DNA from: Myxococcales bacterium
GTDB lineage: Bacteria; Myxococcota; Myxococcia; Myxococcales; JAKAPL01
DNA: 38,753 bases
Reading direction: 5' to 3'
Assembly: GCA_021783235.1 (NCBI GenBank)
Contig: JAJXUD010000044.1
Location: 1-38,753, forward strand
Each line of letters starts with the position of its first letter. The first letter of the stretch is position 1. Both the position numbers and the translations under genes were made by a program. Under the pieces are notes generated by a model. The model made no database searches, was not told where the DNA came from, and saw only the letters and a program-made list of their open reading frames with translations. This document shows, piece after piece, positions 13,432 through 25,645 of the stretch.

Positions 13432-14541
13432 ATGGCGGGCAGCCGCAGCCTGACGATCCACCGGCTCGGCCGCGTCGAGTACGCCGACGGGCTCCTGCTG
13501 ATGCAGGCGTTCCGCGACGCCCGCGCGCGCGGCGAGGTCTCGGACTCGCTCTTCCTGCTCGAGCACCCGCCCGTCCTGACCTTCGGCCGGGGCGCGAAGC
13601 GTGAGCACCTGCTCGCGCCCCCCGAGCTCCTCGAGGCACGGGGCATCGAGCTCTTCGAGACCGAGCGCGGTGGCGACGTCACCTACCACGGCCCGGGGCA
13701 GGTCGTGGGCTACCCCATCGTCGACCTCGCGCCGGATCGCTGCGACGTGCGCCGCTACGTGCGAGATCTGGAGGAGGCGATGATCCGCGCCGCCGCGGAC
13801 TTCGGCGTGACCGCCGGCCGGGTCTCGAAGATGAACGGCATCTGGCTCGGCGAGGACGCCGATCCGAGCACGCCCGGCCTGCCGCGCAAGCTCGGCGCCG
13901 TCGGGGTGCATCTCTCGCGCTGGATCAGCTCGCACGGCTTCGCCTTCAACGCGAACACGCGCCTCGCAGACTTCGAGCTCATCGTCCCCTGCGGCCTGGT
14001 CGGCCGCGGCGTCACCTCCCTCGAGCGCGAGCTCGGCCGGCCCGTCGAGCTCGAGGCCGTCGAGGGCTCGCTCGGAAGGCAGGTCGCCCGCGCGCTGGAT
14101 CGGGAGCCCGTCGAGGCAGAGCCGCCCCGGCGGTTCGTCCAGGTGCAGGTCGTCCGCGAGGGAGGGCGCGGGCCCGAGCTGCTCGGACTCGAACGGACGG
14201 TGGCGCGGGGCGGAATCTGGCAGCCGGTCACGGGCCACGTCGAGCCCGGCGAGTCGACCGAGCTGGCCGCGGCCCGGGAGCTGCTCGAGGAGACGGGGCT
14301 CTCCGCCGAGGTCCAGCCGCTCGGCTACCGGCATTCGTTCGTCTGGCTCTCCGGCGAGCGGCCTTCGGTGGCCGAGGAGACGGCCTTCTTCGCGCGGGCG
14401 CCCGCCGACTTTCAGCCGACCCTCGCGGCGCGCGAGCACCGAGCGAGCGGCTGGCTATCGCTCGACGAGGCGCTCCGGCGCTTTCCCTACGCGGGGCTGA
14501 AGCGGGGCGCGCGGCTCGCCCTGGGGCAGGGGCAGCCGTGA
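13432..14541 (+). CDS. lipB: Octanoyltransferase LipB fused to a C-terminal Nudix domain
   Basis: Residues 1-225 are LipB, which transfers octanoate from ACP to lipoyl domains before LipA adds sulfur. Visible are [33 protein letters not shown], the active-site lysine K153 in [13 protein letters not shown], and cysteine C187 in IVPCGL. Residues about 233-369 add a Nudix hydrolase domain with a full Nudix box from G268 to L290 ([22 protein letters not shown], matching Gx5Ex7REUxEExGU). LipB alone is normally about 200-230 aa. One frame with no internal stop or frameshift makes a real fusion. It is 6 nt after E1-alpha, and its TGA overlaps the GTG of RNase D. The Nudix substrate is unknown. Confidence 0.95.
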
Positions 14542-15459: not shown

Positions 15460-17577
15460 GTGATTGCCCTGGCGCTCGCCGCGCTCCTCGCCTCCACGCC
15501 GGCCACCGACCCGCTTCCCGAGCTTCGGGCGATCGAGCGAGCGCTCGCGGGGGAGGCGCCTCGCGCCGGCGATTCGGCGCGCGCCGTCCTCGCCGCGCTC
15601 CCCTTCCTCTGGCGGCAGGGCCGTTTCGAGGAGGCCGCTGCACTGCTCGCGAAGGCTCCGGCCGACGACCGACTGGGCCCGGAGGCGCGCTGGCTCCGCG
15701 CCGAGTCGCTCGCGTACGCGGGGCGGCCTGGGGAGGCGGCCGAGCTGCTCGGCGATCTCGCCCGGGGGCCGGTCGCCGATCCGATCGTCCGGCGCGCCCG
15801 CGAGCGGATCCCGGAGGAGCTGTTCGCCGCGGGGGACGCCGCCGGCGCAGTGGCGCGCTGGCGGGCGCTGCTCGGCGCGCCGCCGGGGAGCGGTCTGCGG
15901 GCCAGCGCTCCCGAGTGGGAGGAGTACGGTCGGGCGCTCTTGGCCGTGGGGGACGCCGGCGCGGCGGCCCGGGCCCTCCGCGAGGCCTGGCTCTGCGATC
16001 CGGCCGATCCGGCGGGAGGAATGGCCGAGCGCGAGCTCGAGGCGATCGGCGCCCCGCTGGCGGGCGCCGCCGGCGGCTCGCGGAGGCTGCTCGTCCGCGT
16101 GCGCCAGCTCCTCGCCGGGGGGCACCCCGACGCCGCCCACTCGGAGGCGGAGCTTCTTTCCGGCGGCCCTTCGCGAGGCCGGCAGGAGCTCTACTCGGGG
16201 CAGGCCGATCGGGCGCTCGGCCGCGCGGGCGAGGCGCGGCAGCACTGGTCCCGGGCGATGCTCGACCCGAATCCGCGCGTCGCGGCGCTCGCCACGACGG
16301 CTTACGCCCGATCGCTCGAGGCGGAAGGGGACTGGAAGCGGGCCGTCGAGCTGCTCTCCGGGGTGGCGCGCCTTCGCCCGCGGAGCGCCGAGGCGCTCGA
16401 GGCGGGTTACCTCGCCGCCTGGATGGAGCTGCAGCACGGGCTCGTCGACGAGGCGCTCGCCGAATTCAGGCGGATCGCCGGAATCGGCCGCGCCCACGCG
16501 GCAGAGTCCCGCTGGTGGATCGGCTGGGCTCTCTTCGAGCACGGCCGCCCGGCCGAGGCGGCCGCCGCCTGGAATCCGATCGCGCGGCCGGTGGCGACGG
16601 AGCTGGGCCAGCAGGCCACCTACTGGATCGCGCGCGCGCTCGCCGACGCCGGGAGCCCCGTCGAGGCGGGGCGGCTGCTCGCGCCGATCCGGTCCGAGGC
16701 GGCGTCGTACTACGCGCTGCTCGCGGACGGTGGCAGGCCGCCCCCAGTGGGCGCGGCGGCGGTCGACTGCGCCGACGGCGAGGCTCCGCCGCCGCTGCTC
16801 GCGCGGCTCGAGCGGGCCGAGCTGCTCTGGGCGCTCGGGGAGGGGGGCCTCGCCGCCGCCGAGCTGGACGCCGCCGCCGCCGAGGCCGGATCGCCTCGCG
16901 GCGGCGCCGCGGTGGTGGCAGTCGAGTCGGCCCTCGGCGAGGCGGGCAGGGCATTCGCGCTCGTCTCGGCCGGGCGAGCCTGGGTGCGCCGCGTCCCCCC
17001 CGGGCGAGACGGGCCCGAGGCGTGTGGGCGGCTGACGGGCGGGGAGCTGAGCCCCGAGCTCTACCCGAGGCCGCACCGGGAGTCGGTGGAGCGGGCCGCG
17101 GCCGCGGCCGGCATCGATCCGTTGCTCCTCTGGTCCGTGATGCGGCAGGAGAGCCGCTTCCGGGAGGGGGCCCGATCGGCCGCCCGGGCCGCTGGGCTCA
17201 TGCAGCTCCTCGGTTCCACCCGCCGTCGCATCGAGCTCGCGGCGGGCGCCGCCGCCTCGGGGCCCGACGGCGAGATCGCCGCGGCCGCCTGGTATCTGCG
17301 GGCGCTCCTCGATCGGTTCGGCAGCGAAGCGCTGGCCGTGGCGGCCTACGACGGCGGCCCGCCGGCCGTGGAGCGTTGGCGCCGCTCGTTCGGCGATCGC
17401 CCGCTGGACGAATTCGTCGAGCGGATCCCGTTTCGCGAGACGCGCCGCTACGTGAAGCGCGTCCTCGCGAACCACGCCGCCTACCGCGCGCTGTTCGGCC
17501 GCAAGGGGAGCGACGGCCCCCTCGTCGACGCCAAAGCGCGCCCCGGCCGCTCGGAGTCGCGGGGGGTGGAGTTCTGA
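15460..17577 (+). CDS. TPR-containing soluble lytic transglycosylase
   Basis: This 705-aa periplasmic enzyme is predicted to cleave peptidoglycan between MurNAc and GlcNAc with anhydro-ring formation. A short signal peptide (MIALALAALLASTPA) is followed by about 500 residues of Ala-rich helical hairpins like the superhelical U-domain of Slt70, with TPR-like units such as GRFEEAAALLAKAP and GRPGEAAELLGDLARG. A C-terminal lysozyme-like SLT domain (about 535-690) carries the catalytic glutamate E564 in VMRQESRF, followed by SAARAAGLMQLLGSTRR and AVAAYDGGPPAVERW. The GTG start is supported by the signal peptide and by a promoter-like element 7 nt upstream. Its TGA overlaps the beginning of the CAP gene. 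Slt70 has about 645 aa, so the size is usual. Confidence 0.9.
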   Translation: MIALALAALLASTPATDPLPELRAIERALAGEAPRAGDSARAVLAALPFLWRQGRFEEAAALLAKAPADDRLGPEARWLRAESLAYAGRPGEAAELLGDLARGPVADPIVRRARERIPEELFAAGDAAGAVARWRALLGAPPGSGLRASAPEWEEYGRALLAVGDAGAAARALREAWLCDPADPAGGMAERELEAIGAPLAGAAGGSRRLLVRVRQLLAGGHPDAAHSEAELLSGGPSRGRQELYSGQADRALGRAGEARQHWSRAMLDPNPRVAALATTAYARSLEAEGDWKRAVELLSGVARLRPRSAEALEAGYLAAWMELQHGLVDEALAEFRRIAGIGRAHAAESRWWIGWALFEHGRPAEAAAAWNPIARPVATELGQQATYWIARALADAGSPVEAGRLLAPIRSEAASYYALLADGGRPPPVGAAAVDCADGEAPPPLLARLERAELLWALGEGGLAAAELDAAAAEAGSPRGGAAVVAVESALGEAGRAFALVSAGRAWVRRVPPGRDGPEACGRLTGGELSPELYPRPHRESVERAAAAAGIDPLLLWSVMRQESRFREGARSAARAAGLMQLLGSTRRRIELAAGAAASGPDGEIAAAAWYLRALLDRFGSEALAVAAYDGGPPAVERWRRSFGDRPLDEFVERIPFRETRRYVKRVLANHAAYRALFGRKGSDGPLVDAKARPGRSESRGVEF

Positions 17578-18689
17578 GGCTCGCCCTCGTCCTCTCGATC
17601 GGGCTCGCGCTCGGTCCGAAGGGATCGCCGGCGCCGCGGCCGGATCCGGCGGAGGAGGCGCTTGCCGGGATCGTCGCGCAGCTCTACCGGAGCCGGGGCG
17701 CGGAGCCGCCGCGCTGGGATCTGGCGCTCGCCTGCGCGGCCCGCGGCGTCGCGGCGGAGAGCGCGACCCGGCTGGACGACCCCCAGGCGATCCAGCTTCG
17801 CGTGGGGGAGTGCGGCTCGGGTGACCCGGCCCCCGAGGCCTTTCTGGTCGAGGCGTCGACCCGGGAGGCGTTGCTCGCGGGGCTCGCCTCGCGGCTGCCG
17901 GCCACCCGCGCCGACGTGGTCGGCGGCGCCGTGATCGCGACTCCACGGGGCTTTCGAGCGGTGCTCTTGCGCGCCGTCCGCCGGGCTCGAGTCGACGCCG
18001 TCCCGGACCGCGTGCCGGTGGGCGCGACGATTCGGATCGCGGGCGAGCTGCTCGGTGACCTCGGCGCCCCGCAGCTCTTCGTCGAGGATGCGAGGGGGGA
18101 GGTGGTGCCGCTCTCGGCACGCGTGGACGGGCGCCGCTTCGAGGCCGTTGCGACCCTCAGGGCCGCCGGGCGCTACGTGCTCGAGCTCATGGGGCGCGGC
18201 CGCGCGGGGCCGACGGTCGCCTGGCTGCTTCGCGTCGGAGTGGGCATGGCCCCCGGCGGCGTCGCGGCCTCGGGCCAACGGGTCGGCCTGGACGAGCCGT
18301 CCCAGGCCCGCGCCGTCTTCGACGCCATCAACGGGCTGCGGCTCCGGCAGGGGGAGGCGGCCCTTGCGCTCGATCCCGCGCTCTGCCAGCTGGCCGAAGG
18401 CTACAGCCGAGAGATGCGCGACCGAGGCTTCTTCGCGCACGTCTCTCCCTTCTCGGGGGATCTGCGGGCGAGGCTCTCTCGCGCGCGCTACCGCTTCGCC
18501 AGCGCCGGCGAGAACCTCGCAGAGGGCAAGGACGCGCTCTCCGCCCATGCCCTCGCCGAGGAGAGCCCGGCCCACCGGCGCAACCTGCTCGATCCCGGCT
18601 ACGACCGCTGCGGCGTCGGCGTCGCCTGGAGCCGGGACCCGGCCGGGGATCCGCTCGCCATCGTCACCGAGATCTTCGCCGGGGGTTGA
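17574..18689 (+). CDS. Secreted CAP (SCP/PR-1)-domain protein; start probably CTG
   Basis: The last ~135 residues form a CAP domain: INGLRLRQGEAALALDPALCQLAEGYSREM, GFFAHVSP, AGENLAEGKDA, SPAHRRNLLDPGYDRCGVGV and IVTEIFAGG. The first half has a hydrophobic start (LRLALVLSIGLALG), a probable secretion signal, then an alpha/beta segment and a beta-rich segment of unknown fold. Bacterial CAP proteins are extracellular and of varied or unknown function. No ATG, GTG or TTG exists in this frame near the beginning. A CTG at 17574 overlaps the upstream TGA (CTGA) behind GGTGGAG and gives the signal peptide. The first canonical in-frame start is GTG at 17802, which would drop the signal peptide. It is translationally coupled to the transglycosylase gene; both act on or near the cell wall. 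Confidence 0.82.
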   Translation: MRLALVLSIGLALGPKGSPAPRPDPAEEALAGIVAQLYRSRGAEPPRWDLALACAARGVAAESATRLDDPQAIQLRVGECGSGDPAPEAFLVEASTREALLAGLASRLPATRADVVGGAVIATPRGFRAVLLRAVRRARVDAVPDRVPVGATIRIAGELLGDLGAPQLFVEDARGEVVPLSARVDGRRFEAVATLRAAGRYVLELMGRGRAGPTVAWLLRVGVGMAPGGVAASGQRVGLDEPSQARAVFDAINGLRLRQGEAALALDPALCQLAEGYSREMRDRGFFAHVSPFSGDLRARLSRARYRFASAGENLAEGKDALSAHALAEESPAHRRNLLDPGYDRCGVGVAWSRDPAGDPLAIVTEIFAGG

Positions 18690-18777: not shown

Positions 18778-21459
18778 GTGAGCGAGATCGAGGAGAGCCT
18801 GGAGCTGGGCGCGAGCCTCGAGCGACTCGCCCTCCAGCGGTCGGTGGCCCGGGACGGACTCGCGGCGCGGATCGTCGATCTCGCCCCGGGGCTCCCGTTC
18901 CGGCTGGGCGAGAGCGCCCGCGACTTCGCGGTGCCGTTCGCCTGGGATGACGAGATCGACGAACTCGCCACGGCGGCGGTCGAGGGGCTGGGGAACCTTT
19001 TGGCGGCCCGCCGCCCTGGGGCCCCCCCGGGCGCCTTCGCGCTGCGGCGCGGGCTGCCGCCGCTCTGCGTCCGCTTTCTCTCGCTCGCGGCGGAGCACGA
19101 CCCGCACCTCGAGCCGCAGCTCGCCGCGCTGTTCTGGGACGGGCCGGGGGGTGCGCTCGCGGAGGCGCTGCGCCGGGTCTTCGTGCGGGCGCTGGAGGAG
19201 GAGCTCGGCTCCCCGACCCGGGAGCCGTTCGGGCCGCTCGCCGTCCTCGCGGCGGCCTCGCTCGCGGGGAAGGTGAAGGCCCTCGCGCCGCGCGGCATGA
19301 CCTATGAGCGGCTCGAGAAGGCCGTCGGCTTCGCGCTCTTCTCGCTCTCCGAGGCGGCGTCGCGCGTCGCCTCGGCGGAGATTCGAGCTCGCGCCTGGCC
19401 ACTCGACCCGGTGCCCTCGCTCGAGCGGCTGCGGCTCTGGTCGAACCCGCTCTGCTTCATCTCCATCCGGCAGCGCGCCCTGCAGAACGCGGTGAACCCG
19501 TGGCTTCTCCCGGAGGAGCTGGCGTCGGCCTTCGACGCCAAGGTCTCGCGCAGACTCGAGGCGGTCCCGCCGCTCGAGCGGGCCGCGGCGGCGCTGGAGC
19601 AGCTCCAGGCCGAGCCGCGGCTGCGCGAGCTCGCGAGCGCGGCGGGCCGGCGGGCGCGGTTTCGGCGCGGGCTCCTCGAACTCCTCCTGCGGCACGACCG
19701 GGGTGGCGACGACCAGTGGTCCCGGCTCCGCTCCGCCTGGCTCGACGACGGCCAGGCGGACGAGCTTTTGAGAGATCCAAAGGCTTTGGGCGGCGCGGTG
19801 GCGGCTCGGCTCCAACCGCTCCTCCAGCCGCTGTCGGGCCCCGGGGCCGACCTGGACGACCTCCGTGCGAGCGTCGACGCGGCGCTCGCCTACGAGCTCG
19901 ATCGCCAGACGGCCGACGAGCTCGATCGGAACCAACGGACGCTTCGCGACGAGCGCCCTGGGGCGGGGCGGGAGGAGCTGGTCCAGCGCTACACGGCCGG
20001 CCGGCTCTACCGGCTCTCGGGCGACGGCAAGCCGCTCCTGCGGGGCGCGGAGCAGGGCGAGACCGGCTACCTCTTCGTCGACCTCAAGGGATTCACGCAG
20101 CGAACGGTCCGCGTCAAGGAGATCTCGGTCGCGGACTTTCTCCAGCGCGAGTTCTACGAGCCGATCCTCGCCGCGGCGCGCGGCCTCGCCTCGGTCGACC
20201 GGGGCGACCTGCGGCTCTTGAACCTGCTCGGGGACGCCGCCGCCTTCGCGGGCGAGATCCCGACGCTCGTCGCGCTCTCCACCGAGATTCGGCGGATCTG
20301 CGCCGAGTACGAGCGCAAGCTCGCAAGGCTCTCGCCGACGCGTATCCCCGAGGCGAGTCCGGACGCGCGGCTCGTCGCCGAGTCGCGGGCGACGGCGGCG
20401 CGCGAGCCGCTCCTCCTCGAGCGGACGCTCCTCGAGGGGGAGATCTCGCGAAAGCAGTCGGTTCCCCTCGAGGGCCGCCGGCAGGAGCTCGAGCGCCAGG
20501 TGGCCAGTCGGGCCGCCCAGCTCGCGCAGGCGTTCCAGGAGGTGCGCGCTCGGCTCCAGCAGGCCACGCCGGCGGAGCGCGCGGGGATCCAGGCCGAGAT
20601 GGCTCGGATCTCCGTGGCGCAGGAGCAGCTCGTCTCGCGCGCGGAGCTCGCCCTGGCGAGGATTCAGGAGCAGCCCGAGGCGGAGCGGGCCGAGACCCTG
20701 TTCGAGCTCCTCACGGCGCGGGAGCGGGCTCGCCTCGAGGAGCTCGATCGCGAGCTCGGTCGCATCGACACCGACCTCGCGCGCGAGCTGGCGGAGATCG
20801 ACCGGGCGAGCGAGGAGGAGGGTGCGGTGGCGCTCGAGGCCGGCGTCTTCATCAGCCACGGCGCGTCGCCGGAGGAGATCCGCTTCGAGGACCCGCTCTT
20901 CGGCGAGGTGCGCGTCGCCATCGGCGAGCGGCTGAACGAGGCGGCGCGCGGCACGGCCCGCTCGGGCAAGGTGCTCATGGAGGTCGAGGCGGAGGTCGCT
21001 GCCAGCGGGAAGCGGGGCGTCCGCACGCCGTTTGGCGTCCACGTCGAGAGAGGCGACGGGGAGCGGCTCGGGAGCGAGATCTACAACTCGGGGCAGGCCG
21101 TCTCGGCGCGGGCGCTCGACGTCTTCTTGCGCGAGACGCTCGGTGAGCGCTTCCATTTCGAGCGGCGGCTCGCGCGAGCCGATCGCGCGCCCGAGCTCGA
21201 GGCGGCGCTGCCGCTGCCCGCCGAGCTGCGGCTCATCGTCAGCGTCGGCTCTTCGCCGGGCGACGTCCTCGTCTTTCGCGAGGTGGGCGGGGTGCGCTTT
21301 CGCGGCTTCGAGCGCTCGCACCCCTGCCTCGTCTTCGAGCTGCTCGCGGCCGACGGCTCGCTCGCGAAGCTGCTCGCGCGCCACCACCTCCCGAAGTGGG
21401 TGCAGGAGGCGCGCCTCGACCGGGCGTCCTTGCTCTCGGGCCTTCCCGGCGCCAGCTAG
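18778..21459 (+). CDS. Large protein with a class III nucleotidyl cyclase-like domain split by a coiled-coil insertion
   Basis: This 893-aa soluble protein has an N-terminal ~425-residue helical region with no recognised family. Then YLFVDLKGFTQRT appears (D435, first metal ligand position of class III cyclases), and NLLGDAAAF (D486, second metal position). After a highly charged Glu/Arg/Gln-rich coiled-coil stretch (about 515-680), the expected second half resumes: GVFISHGAS (689-697) and VRVAIGERLNEAARG, with N720 and R724 in the NxxxR spacing of the transition-state residues. In ordinary cyclase domains only about 40-50 residues separate these halves. Catalytic residues are kept, so activity is possible; GGDEF or other families do not fit. 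The substrate-selecting Lys appears to be Asn (about 482). A C-terminal domain follows (about 740-893). The GTG start has a promoter element directly upstream. Confidence 0.85.
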   Translation: MSEIEESLELGASLERLALQRSVARDGLAARIVDLAPGLPFRLGESARDFAVPFAWDDEIDELATAAVEGLGNLLAARRPGAPPGAFALRRGLPPLCVRFLSLAAEHDPHLEPQLAALFWDGPGGALAEALRRVFVRALEEELGSPTREPFGPLAVLAAASLAGKVKALAPRGMTYERLEKAVGFALFSLSEAASRVASAEIRARAWPLDPVPSLERLRLWSNPLCFISIRQRALQNAVNPWLLPEELASAFDAKVSRRLEAVPPLERAAAALEQLQAEPRLRELASAAGRRARFRRGLLELLLRHDRGGDDQWSRLRSAWLDDGQADELLRDPKALGGAVAARLQPLLQPLSGPGADLDDLRASVDAALAYELDRQTADELDRNQRTLRDERPGAGREELVQRYTAGRLYRLSGDGKPLLRGAEQGETGYLFVDLKGFTQRTVRVKEISVADFLQREFYEPILAAARGLASVDRGDLRLLNLLGDAAAFAGEIPTLVALSTEIRRICAEYERKLARLSPTRIPEASPDARLVAESRATAAREPLLLERTLLEGEISRKQSVPLEGRRQELERQVASRAAQLAQAFQEVRARLQQATPAERAGIQAEMARISVAQEQLVSRAELALARIQEQPEAERAETLFELLTARERARLEELDRELGRIDTDLARELAEIDRASEEEGAVALEAGVFISHGASPEEIRFEDPLFGEVRVAIGERLNEAARGTARSGKVLMEVEAEVAASGKRGVRTPFGVHVERGDGERLGSEIYNSGQAVSARALDVFLRETLGERFHFERRLARADRAPELEAALPLPAELRLIVSVGSSPGDVLVFREVGGVRFRGFERSHPCLVFELLAADGSLAKLLARHHLPKWVQEARLDRASLLSGLPGAS

Positions 21460-21471
21460 CGGGCGCCGCGC

Positions 21472-21705
21472 TCAGGCCGAGCGGCGCTGCGTCGCGTAGC
21501 CTTCGATGCCGCCCTCGGTGTCGGGCGTCATCGCCACGAGGGGGCAGCGCGCGCAGGTCCAGCTGTTCCAGCCGCGCATCACGGCCTCGTCGAGGCAGTC
21601 GTCGTAGTGCGGGCAGAAGAGCTTGCGATGCAGCTCGACGCCCTGCTTACGCCCGTTGGCCTCGGGGTTGATGGCCGACTGCAGCTCCGTTGGGTTCGGC
21701 TTCAT
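21472..21705 (-). CDS. Small four-cysteine protein, probable metal binding
   Basis: This 77-aa protein of unknown function has four cysteines arranged C31-x5-C37 and C51-xx-C54 (CPHYDDC, WTCARCPL), which can form one zinc or iron-sulfur site. The N-terminal 25 residues are polar. I chose the ATG at 21705 because it fits the promoter and a GGAGG 11 nt upstream. A longer frame to 21750 has no support. It converges with the cyclase-like gene, with 12 nt between the two stops and no visible terminator. Ferredoxin- or zinc-finger-type functions are both possible; no DNA-binding signature is obvious. Confidence 0.8.
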   Translation of the reverse strand: MKPNPTELQSAINPEANGRKQGVELHRKLFCPHYDDCLDEAVMRGWNSWTCARCPLVAMTPDTEGGIEGYATQRRSA

Positions 21706-21753
21706 GGCGAGCGCGTCCTCCGTGGCCCCCGCAACAGCGCCAATGGGCAACGG

Positions 21754-21782
21754 AGAATGCTCCCTGAGACGCGGTGTGTCAA
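21754..21782 (-). promoter_or_regulatory. Putative promoter of the four-cysteine protein gene
   Basis: On the minus strand a perfect TTGACA (21777-21782) lies 17 bp from CATTCT (21754-21759), about 48 nt before the start codon, so a normal leader with a Shine-Dalgarno sequence is expected. Confidence 0.5.
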
Positions 21783-21831
21783 CCCCACGCCCCGGAAGGG
21801 GACGCTCGGCGAGGGCTCGCCCCTCGATGGG

Positions 21832-23352
21832 TCAGCGGGCGAGGGCCGAGACGGCGCCCGTGCCAGCGTCCGGCGCCTCGGGGGCCGCGGTCGCGGCCGG
21901 CGGGGCGCTCGCGCCACGGGCGAGGGCCATCGGCAGGTGGCCGGCCTCGGCGGAGCTGACGAGCTGGTCGAGATCGAAGGAGACCTGGCTCCAGAGATCC
22001 TTCTGGTCGGAGGCGCGGGAGGTGAGGACGTTCTGCTGCGCGGCGGCGCTCTCGTGGGCGGCCGGGTCGATCGCCGCGCGCAGCGCGATCGAGCGGTAGT
22101 CGAGGACGGCCAGAAGCTGGCGCCAGAGGTCCGCGTAGAGCCGGTCGAAGTGGTCTCGGACGGGCTGATCGAGCGCCGAGACGGGCACGGTCGGCAGCTG
22201 CCCGGAGACCGGGAAGCCGATGGCGTCGAGCGTCCCGAAGCCGTCGTGACGGTCGTCCCAGAGCTCGAGGGAGGGGCTGTCCGCGAGCGGGAAGAGGTCG
22301 CTCAGGATGGCGACGCGCACCCTCGCCGGATCGGTGAGCTCGACCACGGCGGTCCGGTCGCCGTACGGGAACAGCAGCCGGTGGGAGCGCTCGGCGAAGA
22401 GCAGGCTGACCACCTTCTCGCGGTCGGCCGGCGTCACGTCCACCGTGCGGACCTGGTCGCGCTTCGGCACCTTCAGGCTCGCGAGCTCGGCCTTGAGCTG
22501 GTCGATCGCGACGACGACGTTGAGCGCCGCCGCGTCGCGATAGCCGGCGTGGTAGATGCCGACGAGCTCGAGCTCGCCGGTCTGGCACGAGATCGCGAAG
22601 ACCGGGCTGCCGCTGTTGCCTTGCGAGAGCAGGGCGTCGGTCACGAAGTCCTCGTGCGCCCAGCCGCGCTCGCTGTCCCACTGGCCGACGCTGATCACCT
22701 TGCCGTTGTTCGAGGCGGCGAACGCGCCGAGCGGGTAGCCGCGCACGACGAGCGCGTTGCCCGTCTTGAGCGCCGAGCTGTCGCCGATCCGGTAGGGCAT
22801 GACGTCGAGCTTCTTGTGGGCCTTGAGCACCGTGACGTCCATCTGCGGGTCCGAGAGGACGCGGGCGAGGAGCGTCATGCCGGGCTCGTAGTCGTCGTCC
22901 TGGCTCTTGACGAGCTTCACCACCTCGCGGACCTTCCGGCTCCCCGGGGGGACCCCTTCGACGGGGTGGGCCTCGTCGGTCACCTCCGGCTGGTCGGCGA
23001 CGTGGTGGTTCGTGACGAGCAGCGTGTCGCCGTCCTTCGACGTCCGCATCGCGAAGGCGGTCCCGTGGATCTCGCTGCGCAGGTAGCTCCGCCGCAGCTT
23101 GCCGTCGGGGCCGTAGTAGAGGTGCTCGTAGGTGGCGACGTCCCGCACGCAGTACGAGTAGTTGTGATCGGGGAGCTGCTCGTAGGCTTCGGTGGCCGGG
23201 TTCTCCGCCGCGAGGAGGTCGGCGTAGCGGCCCGTGCAGCGGGCGCGGCCGAGGAGCGTGGCCGTCTCGGGCGAGGCCGGAGCGGCGGCCGCGCCGGCCG
23301 CGAGGCACAGCGCGCCGACGAGCGAGGCCACCGAGGCGAGAGGCGAGGCCAT
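21832..23352 (-). CDS. Secreted trypsin-like serine protease
   Basis: This 506-aa protein has a signal peptide (residues 1-24, ending AAAAPAS). It carries a chymotrypsin-fold catalytic triad: H117 in LLVTNHHVAD, D171 in DPQMDVTVLK and S246 in LSQGNSGSP. The GNSGSP form and TNHHV context are like those of trypsin_2/HtrA-type and V8-type proteases. No PDZ domain is apparent. The remaining ~220 residues are a C-terminal region without recognised motifs, ending in an Ala/Pro-rich tail. Four cysteines in the mature part may pair in an extracytoplasmic setting. The start at 23352 was chosen to begin the signal peptide. It lies 56 nt behind the FHA gene on the same strand and may be cotranscribed with it. 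Confidence 0.9.
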   Translation of the reverse strand: MASPLASVASLVGALCLAAGAAAAPASPETATLLGRARCTGRYADLLAAENPATEAYEQLPDHNYSYCVRDVATYEHLYYGPDGKLRRSYLRSEIHGTAFAMRTSKDGDTLLVTNHHVADQPEVTDEAHPVEGVPPGSRKVREVVKLVKSQDDDYEPGMTLLARVLSDPQMDVTVLKAHKKLDVMPYRIGDSSALKTGNALVVRGYPLGAFAASNNGKVISVGQWDSERGWAHEDFVTDALLSQGNSGSPVFAISCQTGELELVGIYHAGYRDAAALNVVVAIDQLKAELASLKVPKRDQVRTVDVTPADREKVVSLLFAERSHRLLFPYGDRTAVVELTDPARVRVAILSDLFPLADSPSLELWDDRHDGFGTLDAIGFPVSGQLPTVPVSALDQPVRDHFDRLYADLWRQLLAVLDYRSIALRAAIDPAAHESAAAQQNVLTSRASDQKDLWSQVSFDLDQLVSSAEAGHLPMALARGASAPPAATAAPEAPDAGTGAVSALAR

Positions 23353-23408
23353 GGGCACCGGTCCCTCAACCTGGAACCGCGTGGTCGGGGCCCGCATTCC
23401 CGGGCGCC

Positions 23409-23981
23409 TCACCGGCCGCGCGAGCCCAGCTTCGAGAAGAGCTCGGCAAAGGTCCGCTGCTCGATGGCGCAGAAGAGGCACGAGGCCTCCCCGAAGGCGA
23501 GGACGTCCCCCGATCGGATCGGCTCGCCGTGGCTTGCGACGACGCGGGTGCCGTTGAGGCGCGTGGCGTTGCGGGACTTGGCGTCCCGCACGGAGTAGCC
23601 CTCTTCGGTCCAGCGGATGTCGGCATGGAAGCGCGAAACCGAGGCCTGGTCGATGACGACGTCGTTCTGCGACGAGCGGCCGATGGCCACGTGAGCGTAG
23701 GCATTGCGCTGCGTCTTGACCACCGGCAGGAGCTGGACGCCGGGGGCCGGGCTCTTCGCGCCCATCGCCGACTGGACGAGCCGCACGACGGGCCCCGCCT
23801 GCGTGGTCACCTCGAGGTCGCGGGGCGGGCCCGAGGGCGGCGGCGAGAGCGACAGCGTCCGCCGCTCGCCGGCAGGCCGCTCCCACGGCTCGAGCGGAAT
23901 GAGGAGCGGGCCCTCGAACGCCTCGGCGACGGCGGGAAAGCCCCGCGTGATCCAGAGCCGGAAGAGTTCGTCGAAGGTCAT
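23409..23981 (-). CDS. FHA-domain protein
   Basis: This 190-aa cytoplasmic protein has a forkhead-associated domain in its second half (about 85-175): IGRSSQNDVVID (G101, R102), VSRFHADIRW (S116, H119) and RNATRLNGTRV (N143). These match the phosphothreonine-binding loops, so it probably recognises a partner phosphorylated by a Ser/Thr kinase. The N-terminal half (DELFRLWITRGFPAVAEAFEG, then a Pro-rich stretch) matches nothing I recognise. The ATG overlaps the stop of a 38-codon ORF upstream (ATGA), so translation is probably coupled to it. The secreted protease gene follows on the same strand. Confidence 0.92.
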   Translation of the reverse strand: MTFDELFRLWITRGFPAVAEAFEGPLLIPLEPWERPAGERRTLSLSPPPSGPPRDLEVTTQAGPVVRLVQSAMGAKSPAPGVQLLPVVKTQRNAYAHVAIGRSSQNDVVIDQASVSRFHADIRWTEEGYSVRDAKSRNATRLNGTRVVASHGEPIRSGDVLAFGEASCLFCAIEQRTFAELFSKLGSRGR

Positions 23982-24094
23982 GGCTGTTCGGCGAGCCTTC
24001 CCCCGGGGAGGGGCTCGAGCTCGGCCTCCTCGCGGCGGTGAACGCGAGCGCTCCAGTCGGCCCGAAGGGCCTCGGTGTCGTCGGCGCCGGCCAT
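23978..24094 (-). CDS. 38-aa leader ORF coupled to the FHA gene
   Basis: A tiny frame beginning MAGADDTEALRADW runs to a TGA that overlaps the FHA start codon as ATGA. It is acidic to amphipathic with no recognised family. Two things support it as real: the stop-start overlap, and a well-spaced promoter (TTGACC, 17 bp, TACGCT) ending exactly 6 nt before its ATG. That matches leaderless starts elsewhere in the window. It may act mainly in cis to set translation of the FHA gene, or be a small interacting peptide. Confidence 0.5.
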   Translation of the reverse strand: MAGADDTEALRADWSARVHRREEAELEPLPGGRLAEQP

Positions 24095-24100
24095 GGAGGG

Positions 24101-24129
24101 AGCGTAAATCCGGCGGGCGAACGGGTCAA
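24101..24129 (-). promoter_or_regulatory. Putative promoter of the leader ORF-FHA-protease unit, leaderless-type
   Basis: On the minus strand TTGACC (24124-24129), a 17-bp spacer and TACGCT (24101-24106), with the ATG of the 38-aa ORF 6 nt beyond. Confidence 0.5.
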
Positions 24130-24203
24130 CGAGCGGAGCTCTGTGCCGCTGCCCGAGAGCCCCGGCACGCGGCCGACGGGCCTCGACCTTCCTGGCCTGA
24201 AGC

Positions 24204-24233
24204 TTGCTTGCCCTCCGCTCGCTCTGCTAGCTT
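24204..24233 (+). promoter_or_regulatory. Putative promoter, leaderless-type
   Basis: TTGCTT (24204-24209), an 18-bp spacer and TAGCTT (24228-24233). The TTG start of the thioesterase gene follows after 9 nt without a Shine-Dalgarno sequence. Confidence 0.35.
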
Positions 24234-24242
24234 CCGCGCGCC

Positions 24243-24635
24243 TTGATCCCCCTGGAGATCCGCGTGCTGTACGGCGACACCGATCAGATGGGGTTCGTCT
24301 ACTACGCGAACTACCTCCGCTACTTCGAGGCGGGGCGCGGCGAGTTCATGCGCGCCCGCGGCCGGAGCTACCGCTCGGTCGAGGAGGGCGGGATCAAGAT
24401 CCCGGTGGTCGAGGCGCGCGTCCGCTACCGCGCCCCGGCGCTCTACGACGACGTCCTGCGCATCGAGACGACGCTCTCCGAGGTCACCGGGGCGACCTTC
24501 CAGTTTCGCTACGAGCTGCGCCGCAAGGCGGACGAGCGGCTCATCGCCGAGGGGGAGACCCTCCACGCCTGCCTCGGGCCCGCGGGTCGCCCCGTCCGAG
24601 TACCGAAGGAGCTTGCCGAACTCGTGCTCGATTGA
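24243..24635 (+). CDS. YbgC/4-hydroxybenzoyl-CoA-type hotdog thioesterase
   Basis: This 130-aa single hotdog-fold protein is predicted to hydrolyse acyl-CoA or acyl-ACP thioesters. The signature YGDTDQMGFVYYANYLRYFE carries the catalytic aspartate D14; the His usual in VYHANY is Tyr here, a variation that occurs in some members. The length matches the family. No Tol-Pal genes lie beside it, so a link to that system is not supported; next come an FBPase and an SRPBCC protein. The TTG start at 24243 is the earliest in-frame start and fits a leaderless promoter. A GTG a few codons later would lose the first beta strand. Confidence 0.9.
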   Translation: MIPLEIRVLYGDTDQMGFVYYANYLRYFEAGRGEFMRARGRSYRSVEEGGIKIPVVEARVRYRAPALYDDVLRIETTLSEVTGATFQFRYELRRKADERLIAEGETLHACLGPAGRPVRVPKELAELVLD

Positions 24636-24682
24636 CACCTTTTCGCCCTCACCCCGAACCCCCCGTCCCGAAAGGAATCGTC

Positions 24683-25645
<963 letters not shown>

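Follow-up and report, generated by a model that had tools for sequence, protein, structure and literature searches.

In class III nucleotidyl cyclases two residues read the base of the substrate, one located four positions before the second metal-binding aspartate (Lys for ATP, Glu for GTP) and the other located seven positions before the asparagine (Asp or Thr for ATP, Cys for GTP), and natural variants are known at these base-selecting positions. Base-reading residues were reported for the case of Ma1120 (PMC4215837), and in the pyrimidine cyclases natural changes around the hairpin were found to accompany other bases (PMC11224242). In mammalian adenylyl cyclase, Gs-alpha places its switch II helix into a groove of C2 that is formed by two loops, alpha1-alpha2 and alpha3-beta4, and upon binding of Gs-alpha the domains rotate and approach the active state (PMC2576301). 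In trypanosome adenylyl cyclases the alpha3-beta4 loop carries a 36-residue, two-helix Delta-subdomain, which was proposed to be allosteric (PMC6027212).

The protein described here is encoded within a window of 38,753 nucleotides, i.e., the whole stretch of DNA that was analysed (contig JAJXUD010000044.1 of a Myxococcales bacterium), and it is an insertion-bearing new variant of the class III cyclases rather than a categorically new system. Its gene (18778-21459, forward strand, as are all other features of the window given below) is a real open reading frame of 893 codons which starts with GTG and yields an 893-aa protein, and a full-length homologue with 54% identity was identified in a genome of the same family. 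Translation of the frame placed the motifs VDLKGFT (with D435), LLGDAAAF (with D486), GVFISHGAS and GERLNEAARG (with N720 and R724) at the positions given for them in a preliminary description of this DNA. Sequence searches with the 893-aa protein returned no significant Pfam, NCBIfam or PDB match, just weak chance or coiled-coil matches, and nothing meaningful was found in Pfam for ten distant homologues or for any of the 31 sequences in the family alignment. PF00211 is absent from the listed hits of all 31 family members (E up to 1), none of which reaches the Pfam cut-off, a criterion of recognition and not of mechanism. The preliminary description knew of no described family with such a layout, and none was found in the domain libraries and the literature searched. 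Likewise, no relatives were found among viral contigs and plasmids, and matches to a viral structure library were noise from helical proteins.

The profile search of Myxococcota which had been proposed earlier revealed relatives with varying insert length in 54 of 195 genomes (55 when the protein itself served as query), spread over about 36 of 90 genera with apparently one gene per genome. About one in four of the searched Myxococcota genomes thus carries a member of this family, which domain libraries had not modelled before. Two of the homologues lie in frames of 1605 codons (L084, 8168-12982) and 1489 codons (L086, 6042-10508), which are either gene fusions or merely long GC-rich frames. 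Among 35 aligned members, many of them with only 26-35% identity, D435, N482, D486, V713, N720 and R724 are each kept in at least 34, whereby the sole exception is L011 (D435E, N482S, N720H); the four catalytic positions (D435, D486, N720, R724), of which it was stated earlier that all survive, are strongly conserved in the family. In two very distant relatives the catalytic site is partly degenerate, as L119 is devoid of the second metal Asp and L118 of the Asn. As judged from these exchanges, L011, L118 and L119 are probable pseudo-cyclases, the latter two at the edge of the family.

The relation to class III cyclases was determined with a comparison set of 24 class III cyclase domains, which PF00211 had retrieved from the genome of the window and from those of its relatives. 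The profile comparisons gave probabilities of 93-96% in the expected register. With the insert removed from the family, profile-profile alignment (hhalign) gave a probability of 93-94% and an E-value of ~1e-7, the score being 48.8 as compared to at most 22.9 among 200 column-shuffled controls. Upon addition of the C-terminal strands the global alignment reached E 1.2e-9 over 178 columns with all motifs in register: D435 corresponds to the first metal Asp, LLGD to kfIGD, AGxFISyG to the beta4 strand, IAEKINEAAR to IGDaVNlASR and F[RK]GFE..VYE to vKGk.pV.vy. The first half of the cyclase fold (residues 425-518, 20050..20331; hhalign E 1e-7 and AlphaFold2 topology) comprises beta1, alpha1, alpha2, the beta2-beta3 hairpin and alpha3. 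It holds the two metal-binding aspartates in beta1 and in the beta2-beta3 hairpin, which align with Asp in 24 of 24 class III domains, namely D435 (20080..20082; Asp in 34 of 35 members, Glu in one), aligned with the invariant class III Asp, and D486 (20233..20235; 35/35). The second half (residues 683-744, 20824..21009) spans beta4, the beta5 region and alpha4; by itself it did not align significantly with the class III profiles (E 0.14), so its assignment depends on structure (AlphaFold2/Foldseek) and on the joint alignment. From the beta4 Gly to the Asn, 30 residues were counted in every family member versus 28 in most class III enzymes, and helix alpha4 carries the Asn/Arg transition-state pair four residues apart, i.e., the ribose-orienting N720 (20935..20937; 34/35) and the transition-state R724 (20947..20949; 35/35). 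The C-terminal part of the cyclase domain (residues 766-857, 21073..21348) was assigned by global hhalign and by the AlphaFold2 strands 773-776, 816-823, 830-839 and 850-855; here an invariant IYNxGxAxS strand-helix and the F[RK]G[FL]E...VYE strands align to the class III segments 'ilvSe' and 'vKGk..pV.vy'.

An AlphaFold2 model of the 893-aa protein, built with the family alignment, reached a pLDDT of 88.6 and places beta 428-437, alpha 439-443 and 448-470, beta 479-484 and 487-492 and alpha 494-518 ahead of four helices (528-682), which are followed by beta 687-696, 699-705 and 709-715 and alpha 717-724. When the full protein was compared with the PDB (Foldseek), adenylyl or guanylyl cyclases of class III accounted for nearly all of the best 50 hits; Synechocystis Cya2 was aligned through the insert over 443 columns with a TM of 0.69 (normalised to Cya2). 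The full-length E-values are weak (1.3e-3 at best), probably because the helical parts dominate. A separate model of the insert-free homologue L029 (pLDDT 86.6, pTM 0.82) matched P. aeruginosa CyaB with E 2e-8 and TM 0.74, and the uridylate cyclase structure 8jsz was among its Foldseek hits. Since the Cya2 match spans both halves and the insert-free L029 matches CyaB, both halves belong to a single class III cyclase fold in the predicted structures. The preliminary description had named, as an outcome that would refute it, a predicted structure in which residues 430-500 and 685-725 do not form one ferredoxin-like cyclase fold, and the models thus speak for the class III fold. The N-terminal region (residues 1-395, 18778..19962) was modelled as nearly all helical with pLDDT mainly 85-97, residues 1-10 excepted, and shows conserved columns at R16, G44, P53, R78 and W119 in alignment A1; as noted before, it is unrecognised, no Pfam or NCBIfam match having been found up to residue ~395.

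The helical insert (residues 519-682, 20332..20823) resides in the alpha3-beta4 loop. In class III cyclases the halves had been said to be about 40-50 residues apart, and this was borne out, as 35-49 residues (mode 47, n=24) separate the second metal Asp from the beta4 Gly, compared to 202 in the window protein. The AlphaFold2 model resolves the insert into four helices (528-560, 564-595, 601-630 and 634-682) with short breaks between them and a pLDDT of mostly 90-94, the ends being weaker (~51 at 521-530, 67-73 at 671-690). D, E, K and R make up 31-51% of three of the helices and 23% of the fourth; of the charged coiled coil formerly proposed for residues ~515-680 the strong charge was thus recovered, but the helix does not run through unbroken. 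Nor was support obtained for a coiled-coil lever that would drive the halves apart: they superpose as one fold in the Cya2 match (TM 0.69, 443 columns), meaning that the insert exits and re-enters at the same loop and the halves are not separated, and furthermore the insert is absent from two family members and shorter in others. Within the family the distance from the second metal Asp to the beta4 Gly is 40-48 (L029, L085), 82-115 or 179-207 residues, corresponding to 0 (L029, L085), ~35, ~65 or ~135-160 extra residues depending on the clade. A core tree calculated without the insert groups a long-insert clade including the window protein, two short-insert clades and one insert-free pair, with L013 and L020 having short inserts though they are found within the long-insert clade; it is a quick tree with SH-aLRT support only and no inferred root, so gain and loss of the insert are indistinguishable on it. 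Based on the helix breaks of the model and on the stepwise lengths, the insert looks like a hairpin-type antenna rather than a lever. By analogy with the Gs-alpha dock and the trypanosome Delta-subdomain, which both locate to the alpha3-beta4 loop, it is plausible that the insert serves as input module, and its length series (0, ~35, ~65, ~135-160) constitutes a natural test of this loop as a general input port.

As to the catalytic region, the preliminary description was right about the four positions; what it missed is that the domain reaches to residue ~857 and that the base-selecting pair is replaced. The site of the Lys/Glu is occupied by N482 (20221..20223; Asn in 34 of 35 members), with Lys in 24 of 24 class III cyclases of the relatives, and the site of the Asp/Thr/Cys by V713 (20914..20916; Val in 35 of 35), with Thr in 20 of 24. 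Neither the Lys-Asp/Thr pair (ATP) nor the Glu-Cys pair (GTP) is therefore present in the family, and to our knowledge no characterised cyclase has an N-V pair. As natural variants occur at these positions, N482 and V713 were considered to concern the substrate more than fold membership, and with the pair replaced, substrate and product are not predictable from sequence.

Directly upstream of the cyclase-like gene lies a gene (~17500-18689, start approximate) whose product has a CAP (SCP-like) domain (18318..18632; PF00188, E 2.3e-11) and likely an N-terminal signal sequence. With a profile of this CAP protein, such a gene was located as immediate upstream neighbour for 13 of the 14 long-insert members that could be tested, which come from several families, and beside none of the members without a long insert, including L013 and L020; the correlation rests on few lineages and shared ancestry accounts for part of it. 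The CAP-linked members all come from draft genomes, while the family as such is also present in closed ones (e.g., G065 and G060). No transmembrane segment was found in the cyclase-like protein (maximal 19-residue hydropathy 1.38), thus any tie to the secreted CAP protein would be indirect. Other neighbours, namely glutamine synthetase, SpoU methylase, pseudouridine synthase and glycosyltransferase, look lineage-specific. Elsewhere in the window, a putative 663-aa frame without Pfam or PADLOC match follows directly downstream (21607-23598), a single ORF (13432-14541) combines a lipoate-protein ligase domain (PF21948) with a NUDIX domain (PF00293), and a GlpX-type fructose-1,6-bisphosphatase is encoded at 24038-25645, its domain starting at ORF residue 218, a matter of the start site or of an N-terminal extension.

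Considering these findings, the protein is best explained, with somewhat better than even confidence, as a cytosolic and probably homodimeric class III-like nucleotidyl cyclase which is controlled via a helical antenna. The suggested mechanism assumes that D435 and D486 together with N720/R724 of the partner subunit would cyclise a nucleoside triphosphate, whereby the helical-hairpin antenna projecting from the alpha3-beta4 loop would pass on an input in that it moves the dimer closer to, or further from, its closed and active conformation, and the helical N-terminal region may provide another input or an oligomerisation surface. Dimerisation, antenna function, input and product are what we infer here, as is enzymatic activity, the latter from the conservation of the catalytic residues. 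That six active-site positions are kept at mostly 26-35% identity argues for a selected catalytic function; counting against it is the missing K/E and D/T/C pair. The replacement of this pair by N482/V713 in the whole family would also suit a pseudo-cyclase, i.e., a class III fold serving as regulatory module which binds a nucleotide or second messenger without turnover, and the loss of catalytic residues in L011, L118 and L119, where the gene is retained, documents that the protein can persist without catalysis. A mere binding site would, however, need neither the transition-state Arg nor both metal Asp, and as 34 of the 35 aligned sequences have retained the full set of D, D, N and R despite divergence to 26-35% identity, this explanation is considered unlikely, though worth keeping in mind.

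Assignment of the region to a different group with a palm fold, be it the GGDEF diguanylate cyclases or the Cas10 palm, would draw on the ferredoxin-like core common to palm and class III cyclase domains (PMC6027212), the class III likeness then reflecting the common fold alone. Yet class III cyclases make up almost all of the best 50 PDB hits obtained with either model, the N-x3-R helix and the GD hairpin of class III are present in register, and the 893-aa protein has neither a GG[DE]EF motif nor a PF00990/Pfam GGDEF hit, rendering this assignment highly improbable. Both strands of the window contain numerous long frames that overlap, which might raise the suspicion that the motif arose by chance in a GC-rich frame that was over-read and encodes no real protein, but with the same motifs in homologues from ~54 genomes and a confident AlphaFold2 model this can practically be dismissed. 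A more far-reaching version of the cyclase reading is regarded as speculative and rather doubtful: the family would be a new class III subfamily with an unprecedented N-V pocket, whose product is neither cAMP nor cGMP or which takes several bases, gated by the helical antenna at the Gs-alpha groove and, in the long-antenna clade, coupled to the secreted CAP protein. The favoured reading as an antenna-controlled class III-like cyclase implies a probable second-messenger enzyme, present in one copy in roughly every fourth Myxococcota genome that was searched, which is invisible to domain libraries.

Amongst named systems, DUF2652 (PMC4886424) is likewise a bacterial family of undefined function which profile and fold comparisons have put among the class III cyclases; its members are single-domain proteins of 250 aa on average from Actinobacteria, Bacteroidetes and Proteobacteria, unlike the 893-aa protein, for which no hit to the DUF2652 Pfam model was obtained. 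Pycsar PycC (PMC11224242) shares with the family the class III fold and altered base-recognition residues, but the residues of the base pocket differ. PADLOC gave no PycC hit for four members and two neighbours, its just two weak and unrelated matches being in L009 (best E 0.035), and no Pycsar-type effector was seen as neighbour. From the class III cyclases CyaB (3r5g), Synechocystis Cya2 (2w01) and S. platensis CyaC the family differs by the absent PF00211 score and the N/V pair, to which it adds the alpha3-beta4 helical insert, insertions between alpha4 and beta6 and before beta7, and the helical N-terminal region. The trypanosome cyclases GRESAG4.1/4.3 likewise bear a helical insertion at the alpha3-beta4 loop, the likeness being one of position: theirs has 36 residues in two helices and belongs to a membrane receptor, whereas the family has up to ~160 extra residues, arranged in four helices in the window protein, and is cytosolic.
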